A stretch of 51,657 nt of DNA from an uncultured Alphaproteobacteria bacterium (lineage in GTDB: Bacteria > Pseudomonadota > Alphaproteobacteria > CAAHEQ01 > UBA3637): the NCBI GenBank assembly GCA_944393195.1, contig CALXZG010000008.1, positions 1 through 51,657 on the forward strand, given 5' to 3'. Below, piece by piece: positions 23,634 to 25,906 of this stretch (position 1 is the stretch's first letter; every line of letters begins with the position of its first letter). The position numbers and the translations under genes were made by a program. A model generated the notes under the pieces. It saw only the letters and a program-made list of their open reading frames with translations, was not told the origin of the DNA and did no database searches.

Positions 23634-23710
23634 CGGAATGTAGCTCAGCCTGGTAGAGCACTACGTTCGGGACGTAGGGGCCATGGGTTCGAATCCCGTC
23701 ATTCCGACCA
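23634..23710 (+). tRNA. tRNA-Pro (CGG)
   Basis: A full cloverleaf is present: acceptor CGGAATG/CATTCCG, D arm with GCTCAGCCTGGTAGAGC, anticodon stem CTACG/CGTAG around TTCGGGA (anticodon CGG), T arm with GGTTCGAATCC, and an encoded CCA. A promoter precedes it and a terminator follows. Confidence 0.97.
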
Positions 23711-23903
23711 ATGATAAAAAGACCGCCGTTTGGCGGTTTTTTTATGGTTGGATATGGTGGGATGAGAACCCATGGAGAAATGGGTTCGGACGGCGGCGCC
23801 GGCGGGCGGGAGAACGCCGAAAAAAAAAGCCGCCGTAATGTCGAGCGTAGCGAGACAGCCCCTTGCGGGTGAGCGGCAGCGAATAATCCCGTCATTCCGA
23901 CCA
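23692..23903 (+). repeat. 19-bp duplication of the tRNA-Pro 3' end flanking a GC-rich insert
   Basis: The last 19 bases of the tRNA (23692-23710) recur exactly at 23885-23903, 193 bases downstream. Between them lies a GC-rich stretch, unlike the surroundings, with two perfect inverted repeats (GAACCCAT/ATGGGTTC and CGGCGGC/GCCGCCG) and the tRNA terminator. This looks like an attachment-site duplication or a tRNA-linked palindromic element. A minus-strand frame across it (23551-23904) is antisense to the tRNA and not a gene. Confidence 0.65.
23722..23743 (+). terminator. Terminator of tRNA-Pro
   Basis: ACCGCC/GGCGGT with a 4-base loop (23722-23737), followed by seven U. Confidence 0.85.
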
Positions 23904-23907
23904 TTAT

Positions 23908-23940
23908 AACTTCCTAATAATTCAGGAAGTTCTTATTTTT
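23908..23940 (+). terminator. Hairpin with U-rich tail after the duplicated tRNA end
   Basis: AACTTCCT/AGGAAGTT (23908-23915 with 23924-23931) is followed by CTTATTTTT. Beyond it, up to 24092, I see no gene, only a doubled ATCCGGGCAA (near 23986-24007). Confidence 0.6.
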
Positions 23941-24092
23941 ATACTATCTAAAAAATGACCATAAAAGGCCACAAAAAATAATTAAATCCGGGCAAGATCC
24001 GGGCAAACTATGGGGTACTTCCGAAGTGACCTGTAAAGCAATAGGAACAGAGCAATACCCGATAAAATCGTTATGCAGTTCTAACAGTTATT

Positions 24093-24563
24093 TCAATGCG
24101 TTAGCAAGGGAGATTCATCTTTTAATTTCATATACAAAATGGGATAGGGGTTTCCTTGTTCATCGGTATCGCTTCTGTGATACGGATAAAAACCCATATG
24201 TTCATAAAAACCGCGGGCGGCCGGATTTTGTTCATTCACCGTTAAGGTTCGCACGCCGTATTTTTGTACCCCCTCTTGTATCAATTGTTTGCCGTATCCC
24301 CTGCCCCGCTCTTGGGGTGCAACGAACAGCATTTCAAGTTTGTGATCGGCTATTCCCATAAAAGTGATCGGCGCATCATTTTCATCTGTGGCAACAAGCA
24401 AATGTTCAATCTGAGTTAACGCTTCGGGAACATATTTTTTAATAGCGATAATTTCGGCATCCGATAAGAACGTATGCGTAGCCCGTACCGATGTTTCCCA
24501 TACATTCAATAATTGTGCCAACAACAACGGTGATCGTGTCGGGACTTCCATTATTTTAATCAT
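24093..24563 (-). CDS. GNAT acetyltransferase, YjaB-like
   Basis: The 156-residue N-acetyltransferase has the acetyl-CoA-binding motif VAPQERGRGYGKQLI (Q/RxxGxG/A) near residues 81-95 and a C-terminal NPAARGFYEHMGFYPY. The N-terminal VWETSVRATHTFLSD is typical of the YjaB branch, whose substrate is unknown. The ATG at 24563 has only AAGG two bases upstream, and a second ATG lies at 24551, so the start is uncertain. It stands alone in an accessory stretch behind tRNA-Pro. Confidence 0.82.
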   Translation of the reverse strand: MIKIMEVPTRSPLLLAQLLNVWETSVRATHTFLSDAEIIAIKKYVPEALTQIEHLLVATDENDAPITFMGIADHKLEMLFVAPQERGRGYGKQLIQEGVQKYGVRTLTVNEQNPAARGFYEHMGFYPYHRSDTDEQGNPYPILYMKLKDESPLLTH

Positions 24564-24711
24564 ACCTTATATATATCCATTTTCGGACACAAACGCAAGC
24601 AAAAAACAGTGATTAGCACCGCTAAATCCGAACAAATTTCCAAAACGCATCGGACATGACTTAGTCCACACGCCTATCCTTTCATTTCGATATGAGTAGC
24701 CGTTTTGATTC

Positions 24712-25185
24712 TTAACTGTTTATTTTCAGAACCAAAGTACTACAAACCTCCTGGTAATTTAATTTTTTATAAAAAGTTTTGGCACCGGTATTAAAGCTAT
24801 AAACTTCTAATTCAACCTGAGGAATATTTTCCCGTCGTGCTTTTTGAACGACCGCTTCATGTAACCGGCGACCGATTCCCCTTTTTTTAAATTTTGAACT
24901 GACGGCAATATCATAAATTTTATAATAGGTATCCGCCTGATACACATTATCGATTCTTTTTTCCAACCCGACAGTGACAATACCGGCAATTTGGTCGTTA
25001 ACCAATGCCACAAATCCAAACGTTTTAGGATCTGTTAAAATCCAATTCAGATAGGGTTTAGAAACGGATTTATCGCGAGAAGCAAAGTAATCCGGATTAT
25101 TTTGATAATGTAGACAATTTGATTCATGTAAAATCGTCAGGACATCGTTAAGATGGTGTTTTTGAAAATCAATAATATCAACCAT
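24712..25185 (-). CDS. GNAT acetyltransferase
   Basis: The 157-residue protein is a second, unrelated GNAT enzyme: a helical start (DVLTILHESN), a beta-strand pair, then IAVSSKFKKRGIGRRLHEAVVQKA as the acetyl-CoA-binding motif, followed by VELEVYSFNTGAKTFYKKLNY. It has a strong GGAGG ribosome site. The gene looks AT-richer than housekeeping neighbours, in keeping with acquisition. The substrate could be an amine, a peptide or an antibiotic, and sequence alone does not tell. Confidence 0.82.
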   Translation of the reverse strand: MVDIIDFQKHHLNDVLTILHESNCLHYQNNPDYFASRDKSVSKPYLNWILTDPKTFGFVALVNDQIAGIVTVGLEKRIDNVYQADTYYKIYDIAVSSKFKKRGIGRRLHEAVVQKARRENIPQVELEVYSFNTGAKTFYKKLNYQEVCSTLVLKINS

Positions 25186-25261
25186 TCTCTCCTCCTTTTT
25201 TATAAAACAAAGATAAAATATTTCTGATTAAAAGTCAATTCCGACAAGAAAACTCAACCGG

Positions 25262-25906
25262 TTATATCAGATAGGGACGCGGACAGTGATTAGGATATGT
25301 TGATAAATACCGCCGGAAATTCTTTTGAATAAAGCGATACAGCGTCGGAGACGAAACGCCCAGGCGGCGCGCAATATGAACTTTGGGAATTTGTTGTAAG
25401 AGCATTTGTTCAACTTCCACTTCACGACCGCCAAGCTTAATATTTTTGTTATGACCACCACGCGGCCGACCGAGCTGTCTTCCTTCGGCTTTCAATCGTT
25501 TAAAGGTTTCGCGGGTTCGTTGGGAAATCATTTCACGTTCAATACTGGCGGAAATACTGAACGCAAAGGCCAAAACCTGACTTTGAATATCGACCCCGAG
25601 TTTATATTGCTCTTTCAATGTCCAAACCTGACACCCAACGGTCATACAAGCTTCCAAAAAACTCATCACCTGCATTGAATTACGACCAAATCGGGATAAT
25701 TCCGAAGCGATAATAGTATCCCCTTTTTTGAGTTTTTTAATCAATTGTCCCAATCGACGTTTATGAATAGCCTTGGTGCCGGAAATGGTTTCTTCTATCC
25801 AATGGTTAATCGATAATTCGTTCTTGCGGGCGTACTGTATAATTTCGTACCGTTGATTTTCAACCGTTTGTTTATCCGTACTGACACGAATATATCCGTA
25901 AATCAT
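25262..25906 (-). CDS. Serine recombinase, Mpi-like DNA invertase/resolvase
   Basis: The 214-residue enzyme has a complete resolvase domain: YGYIRVSTDKQTVENQ (nucleophile Ser9), SELSRFGRNSMQVM, the E-helix region SISASIEREMISQRTRE, and RLKAEGRQLGRPRGG. A C-terminal helix-turn-helix (IPKVHIARRLGVSSPTLYRFI) binds the crossover site. The start closely resembles the Mpi master invertase of Bacteroides. GGAGG precedes the ATG. It may invert or resolve DNA nearby. A pair of imperfect inverted motifs flanks 25.92-26.04 kb. Confidence 0.9.
   Translation of the reverse strand: MIYGYIRVSTDKQTVENQRYEIIQYARKNELSINHWIEETISGTKAIHKRRLGQLIKKLKKGDTIIASELSRFGRNSMQVMSFLEACMTVGCQVWTLKEQYKLGVDIQSQVLAFAFSISASIEREMISQRTRETFKRLKAEGRQLGRPRGGHNKNIKLGGREVEVEQMLLQQIPKVHIARRLGVSSPTLYRFIQKNFRRYLSTYPNHCPRPYLI

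Follow-up and report, generated by a model that had tools for sequence, protein, structure and literature searches.

Transfer RNA-linked repeats (TLRs) were first described in 1978, and excerpts of a published account (PMC8144298) list 22 copies at ten loci in Escherichia coli, each ending in 18–19 bp identical to the upstream tRNA or rRNA. The same excerpts give their function as not known and record that an early claim for a role in recovery from starvation was later withdrawn. They also describe RrA, RrB and RrF as read-through RNAs made between a terminator T1, which stops 87% of transcripts, and a second terminator T2, which stops 100%; the transcription and processing of these RNAs have been demonstrated in E. 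coli, and an RNase E signal has been proposed for the repeat at their 3′ end (PMC8144298, in part). Portions of two further papers place RtT-family RNAs near tRNA genes in Actinobacillus (PMC4986893) and report that rtT resembles conserved elements belonging to BIMEs (PMC2965389). In the E. coli annotation, the end of rttR coincides exactly with the CCA of the first repeat that follows tyrV. Our literature search, outside which most subscription papers lay, returned no report of a tailored inverted copy or of tmRNA-linked copies.

The DNA that we analysed (the window; 51,657 nucleotides) comes from an uncultured member of the Alphaproteobacteria and carries a tRNA-Pro(CGG) gene at 23634–23710 (+), identified by ARAGORN and with an Rfam tRNA score of 65.8 bits. 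The last 19 nt of this tRNA, including CCA, lie at 23692–23710 and recur exactly at 23885–23903 (+; AATCCCGTCATTCCGACCA), as a first-pass annotation made from the letters had pointed out. The window holds no third site within 3 mismatches, and two matches occurred in 0 of 100 shuffles. The 193 bp assigned by that annotation to the intervening segment is the start-to-start spacing of the copies, which are separated by 174 bp (23711–23884). Its description of that stretch as G+C-rich and palindromic holds: G+C is 0.55–0.57, against about 0.35–0.45 just outside, and there are two perfect inverted repeats, the hairpin GAACCCAT/ATGGGTTC and the stem ACGGCGGC/GCCGCCGT. The annotation made no mention of a 39-nt inverted copy, a copy of the 5′ half of the T-arm or the terminator-like hairpin on each side.

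The hairpin nearest the tRNA (T1, 23720–23742, +) is followed by a T-run, lies between the tRNA and the repeat, and is terminator-like on both strands. Repeat search, inspection of the sequence and cross-element alignment place an inverted copy of the host T-arm and acceptor 3′ strand at 23745–23775 (+). It begins after a gap of 34 bp, and so in the position immediately downstream of a tRNA or rRNA gene that defines TLRs. Counted over the whole tRNA 3′ half, the inverted copy spans 39 nt (23681–23719 with 23737–23775) and is 72% complementary. Its T-loop step is altered, reading GGGATGAGAACCCATGG where the exact reverse complement would be GGGATTCGAACCCATGG, and it contains GGGATGAGAACCC where GGGATTCGAACCC would be expected from an exact reverse complement of the tRNA T-arm. 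A copy of the 5′ half of the T-arm, ATGGGTTCG, follows at 23780–23788 (+), recognized by sequence and by the host test described below. Between it and the distal 19-nt copy is a GC-rich structured core that does not derive from the tRNA (23789–23884, +), defined by its fold z-score and by helices that covary in 121 homologous elements: P3 (23789–23837), P4 (23839–23857), P5 (23858–23870) and P6 (23873–23880), all read on the + strand. The region 23743–23903 folds with a z-score of −4.95, 20 kcal/mol better than the shuffled mean. A second terminator-like hairpin, T2 (23908–23941, +), stands 3′ of the repeat. Farther downstream are the GNAT genes and recombinase that the annotation had listed; at 24093–25906 (−) two GNAT acetyltransferases and a serine recombinase with a Resolvase domain separate the repeat from a class II lysyl-tRNA-synthetase-like gene. 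At this locus nothing was found to connect these genes with the repeat.

By its model matches and its layout, this segment is a tRNA-linked repeat (TLR; Rfam RtT). Covariance model R1, trained on 21 elements from relatives with the window and E. coli left out, matches the window element at 36.0 bits (E 5e-7) and finds the four E. coli tyrT repeats at 52.0, 39.1, 36.8 and 36.4 bits; because neither was in training, these matches argue that the window element and the E. coli members are related. A larger model, R2, scores the window element at 37.2 bits with that element in its training set, and the region matched by the two models is 23750–23899 (+). The Rfam RtT model (RF00391) aligns over its full length to 23741–23903 (+) with its terminus exactly at the copied CCA, at a score of 23.8 bits that lies below the curated gathering score of 45. 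Where TLRs are recognized by an 18–19-bp 3′ end identical to the upstream gene, the identity here is 19 of 19. The own-genome repeat at tRNA-Lys is missing from the matches of R2, for which it is too divergent. Other Rfam names returned with low E values over the tRNA, among them Bp1_162 and isrK, were discounted as matches to tRNA plus terminator that fall short of their gathering scores.

The window element and its relatives resemble the E. coli K-12 TLRs (RtT/RttR of tyrT, and the argQ and argZ spacers) in lying directly after a tRNA, in taking their 18–19-bp 3′ end from the upstream gene and in occurring as tandem copies; with the tyrT TLR they further share inverted and 5′ T-arm copies and a related core. 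The host tRNA is a different one, however, the window element has an extra core hairpin, and T1 lies between tRNA and repeat in the window, whereas by eye there is none at tyrT or argQ/argZ. RrA, RrB and RrF likewise have two flanking terminators and end in a copy of the 3′ end of the upstream RNA, and by eye their stems are similar to P4 and P5. They differ in that their host is 5S rRNA rather than a tRNA, in that the rrnB repeat (rrB) has no R2 match and in CsrA binding, which the window element is not known to share.

The core carries the pattern of substitutions expected of a conserved RNA structure. Over all 26 pairs there are 325 double-change cells against 130 in shuffled alignments, and 81.7% of cells are paired, against 72.1% when shuffled and 33–52% when slid. 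Stems P4 and P5 pair in 98–99% of cells, and one P5 pair is G–C in 62 and G–U in 51 of 115 sequences. Because the helices covary with many G–U pairs, the core would act as RNA; a DNA cruciform as the functional form is disfavoured by the frequency of G–U at that P5 position. Given alignment A1, RNAalifold chose the native T-stem, formed by the 5′ copy with the 3′ copy, over the antisense pairing. Pairing in P1 and P2 is not independent evidence, since both strands derive from the tRNA and both pairings fit.

Judged by these models, the TLR class reaches well beyond E. coli, with members in one family and in scattered genomes elsewhere in its phylum; the class itself is already known, and what is new here is its spread and its tailoring. 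In the family scan (R1, E≤0.01), 37 of 43 genomes have elements. We studied 97 family loci (30 stored, 60 picked among the matches listed and 7 from earlier searches), which contain 121 matches. Sixty-six of these lie within 90 bp 3′ of a tRNA, representing 20 anticodon types, and the other 55 comprise 21 tandem copies, 11 cut by the start of a contig or stretch, 1 at 466 bp and 22 with no tRNA upstream. R2 found elements in at least 19 of 385 genomes of the class, at least 14 of them outside the family, and in at least 39 of 398 genomes in a separate draw from the phylum, presumably Pseudomonadota, with at least 38 besides the source genome; these are lower bounds resting on at most nine scored candidates per genome, and one genome is common to both scans. 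In 52 stored class and phylum loci with 68 matches, 42 matches lie within 150 bp after a tRNA or tmRNA, 16 are tandem, 4 are near a start, 2 are at 151–1,000 bp and 4 are without a tRNA (two of the last come from loci overlapping ones already counted).

Within the source genome, exact 19/19 copies follow four of 42 tRNA entries (Lys-TTT, Pro-CGG, Gln-TTG and Glu-CTC; three of the 42 have less than 30 bp downstream), and Ser-CGA has a degenerate copy with 5 mismatches. R2 identifies six elements in this genome, two of which are displaced remnants. A different kind of trailer repeat occurs at two of its tRNA-Met genes (L050 and L064; C6:62774–62847 and C15:1685–1757), where direct repeats include the last 12–15 nt of the tRNA together with its terminator, without an inverted copy. 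Comparison of 29 tRNA-Pro loci in relatives, some with less than 170 bp of downstream sequence, shows patchy occurrence: R2 matches 3, and a script finds T-arm copies at two more. The first-pass annotation had proposed these comparisons together with a search beside other tRNAs, and had named as its refutation a segment conserved at this one locus with no copies elsewhere. The results went the other way, and relatives of the segment adjoin many other tRNAs.

Each element is fitted to the gene that it follows. In 65 distinct family elements (66 minus one identical), the two direct copies make 943 matches to the T-stem and acceptor of the host, compared with 536 on average and at most 608 in 2000 host permutations. 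Among 42 tRNA ends, the host alone fits best for 47 of the 65 and shares first place for 6, with another tRNA better for 12, and the 19-nt copy is exact in 29. The inverted copy agrees with the host T-stem 5′ strand at 2.95 of 5 positions (permuted maximum 2.31). Tailoring extends to 52 nonredundant elements from other lineages, four of them the known E. coli repeats: host match is 16.1 of 19 against 11.8 for other tRNAs, 22 copies are exact and 31 fit the host above every other tRNA. Two tmRNA genes (L249 and L252) from the more distant genomes are also followed by TLR-type elements that carry, by eye, their own version of the T-arm 3′ half (AAACCCGCC in L249; AGTCC...CCCGCCGCC in L252). By these comparisons, the inverted copy and the T-arm 5′ copy, and not just the 3′ copy, follow the host tRNA.

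These observations bear on the two explanations that the annotation had offered. One was the scar of an excised genomic island, in which the 19-mers would be attL and attR. An integrase would leave just such a 19-nt direct repeat of a tRNA 3′ end, and islands in the family do seem to recombine at tRNAs, but a scar should consist of direct repeats around DNA that is unrelated from locus to locus, whereas an inverted copy, a 5′ copy and a conserved structured core recur here beside numerous tRNAs of many genomes, E. coli among them, which a scar leaves unexplained. As the main explanation it is refuted by the R1 matches, including those at E. coli tyrT, by host tailoring and by core covariation, and we give it very little credence. 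Phage origin was also rejected: none of the 182 phage records found in a distant search covers 80% of the query (23634–23960), and the eight matches listed cover only the tRNA gene.

The other, a small palindromic element that targets tRNA ends, came nearer the mark, although the element belongs to the known TLR class rather than to a new one. Movement is real in two cases, but no dedicated machinery was seen. In the first case, a tRNA-Gln(CTG) gene of one genus (G017) and a tRNA-Gln(TTG) gene of another (G006) are identical, one base excepted, over a stretch that starts 8 nt before the tRNA end and runs on for 171 nt past it. The tRNA genes themselves differ, and the G017 cassette retains the T-arm of its donor. 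In the second, a tRNA-less element of the source genome (C9:22131–22284; L267) is identical at 160 of 161 positions to the tRNA-Pro trailer of another genus (G013) and is preceded by only the last 6 nt of the G013-type tRNA-Pro, a near-identity that we take as a sign of recent transfer. From these two alignments, cassettes move between tRNA loci with breakpoints in the last 6–8 nt of the tRNA.

Such movement raises the question of whether the repeat is simply a selfish or passive cassette, spread by recombination at tRNA 3′ ends, matching its host as a by-product of recombination rather than by selection and owing its persistence solely to the distal copy, which keeps the tRNA whole. The unit of the tandem arrays, which spans one 3′ copy to the next, would fit such a cassette, as would the ~180-bp segment shared by the two tRNA-Gln genes, the tRNA-Pro trailer shared between genera and the patchy presence at tRNA-Pro loci. 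Against it, the core helices are kept across the family by compensatory changes and G–U pairs, no associated enzyme was seen, and cores from the same genome show no more similarity than expected (genome effect −0.001, with one of the 65 elements dropped for its unusual core length). This genome effect argues against a recent burst of copying, and recent intragenomic copying was rejected as an explanation; the effect of sharing an anticodon is weak (+0.02, reached by 15 of 1000 permutations). On balance we regard a purely selfish or passive cassette as unlikely.

Many of the 22 tRNA-less family elements look like products of island activity, being preceded by tRNA 3′ halves cut at the anticodon loop (Lys and Gly) or by no more than the last few nucleotides of a tRNA (Gln, Lys and Pro). 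In five elements (C3:39603–39716 in the source genome, L265; L148, L158, L152 and L135), 3′ halves of tRNA-Lys or tRNA-Gly that start at the anticodon loop are fused directly onto a TLR core, a layout that would follow from loss of the intervening piece by recombination between the two GGGTTCG copies; the fusion in the source genome lies about 3.8 kb from tRNA-Lys(TTT). Seven Gln-type elements with no tRNA upstream (L153, L155, L156, L186, L187, L198 and L201) have in common a conserved ~27-nt leader that closes with CCAGCCA; it is probably the terminus of an island family whose recombination site is the last 7 nt of tRNA-Gln.

Taken as a whole, the picture that we consider likely is of a TLR of tRNA-Pro(CGG) that yields a read-through RNA, undergoes tRNA-like processing at its 3′ end and is inherited with its tRNA, with occasional movement as a cassette. 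Among 63 family elements (66 minus three with short downstream sequence), a T1-type hairpin is present in 54, T2 in 39 and both in 37, against 0.4 and 0.5 in shuffled sequence. This layout is the arrangement of E. coli RrA, RrB and RrF, and by analogy we infer that read-through applies here as well. T1 would end most transcripts, and those that read through would run on to T2, with the repeat included. The copied T-arm and acceptor 3′ end with its CCA may then be a substrate for the enzymes of tRNA 3′-end formation, whose action would release a small structured RNA of ~190 nt in amounts tied to transcription of the tRNA. The repeat would pass down with its tRNA and now and then shift between tRNA genes as a cassette, with breaks within the tRNA's last 6–8 nt and probably carried by integrative islands. 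By our criterion T2 is absent from 24 of the 63 elements, and in several family elements the acceptor/CCA portion of the copy is gone, which means that not every element can have a processed 3′ end.

The presence of both inverted and direct copies of the tRNA end also permits a more elaborate proposal. In the read-through RNA, the T-arm and acceptor 3′ strand of the tRNA itself could be captured by the inverted copy, with the distal copy taking the place of the captured strand opposite the acceptor 5′ strand, leaving the RNA a choice between a normal tRNA with a free repeat and a misfolded tRNA. Structure prediction for 64 elements (65 minus one truncated within its copy by a contig end) pairs the 3′ strand of the tRNA T-stem with the trailer in 56, retains the native T-stem in 2 and joins the acceptor 5′ strand to the distal copy in 54. 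Relative to the separate parts, the read-through fold is predicted to be more stable by a mean of 13.2 kcal/mol, and by 3.7 kcal/mol when trailers are swapped between hosts; for the window the cloverleaf-constrained fold is calculated at −119.3 and the free fold at −131.0 kcal/mol, a gain of 11.7. In distant lineages the corresponding predictions are 24 of 30 for the T-stem 3′ strand in the trailer, 2 of 30 for the native T-stem and 28 of 30 for acceptor pairing with the distal copy. Elements whose 5′ copy has drifted offer a comparison of another kind, in which the inverted copy, scored by alignment columns without wobble, is closer to the host tRNA in 14, to the element's own copy in 6 and equal in 6; when wobble is allowed and G–U pairs are counted, the figures are 7, 4 and 15.

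Such a fold, however, tends to arise from any pair of inverted and direct copies of a tRNA end, and folding prediction ignores tertiary structure, modifications, kinetics and cotranscriptional folding. The separation is also weaker in the distant lineages, with a mean gain of 9.7 against 5.3 kcal/mol for swapped trailers, and elements with fewer than 13 of 19 matches had been dropped beforehand; for argQ and argZ of E. coli the gain is close to nil (0.0 and −0.5). We hold a strand-exchange switch to be unlikely compared with the read-through and processing reading, and it is with similar reserve, as a speculation that we do not expect to hold in full, that we put forward its general form: that TLRs are old and widespread cis-acting trailers of tRNA (and tmRNA), with three segments tailored to the T-arm, that work as strand-exchange devices and also move as cassettes.

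If that were true, the trailer would take up the 3′ half of the tRNA and supply a CCA end of its own in exchange, so that termination at T1 would be coupled to tRNA maturation. The tmRNA-linked copies and the three tailored segments point to the T-arm and CCA end, rather than the amino acid, as the feature recognized. Strand exchange in the read-through RNA would also be a concrete prediction for tests in E. coli.
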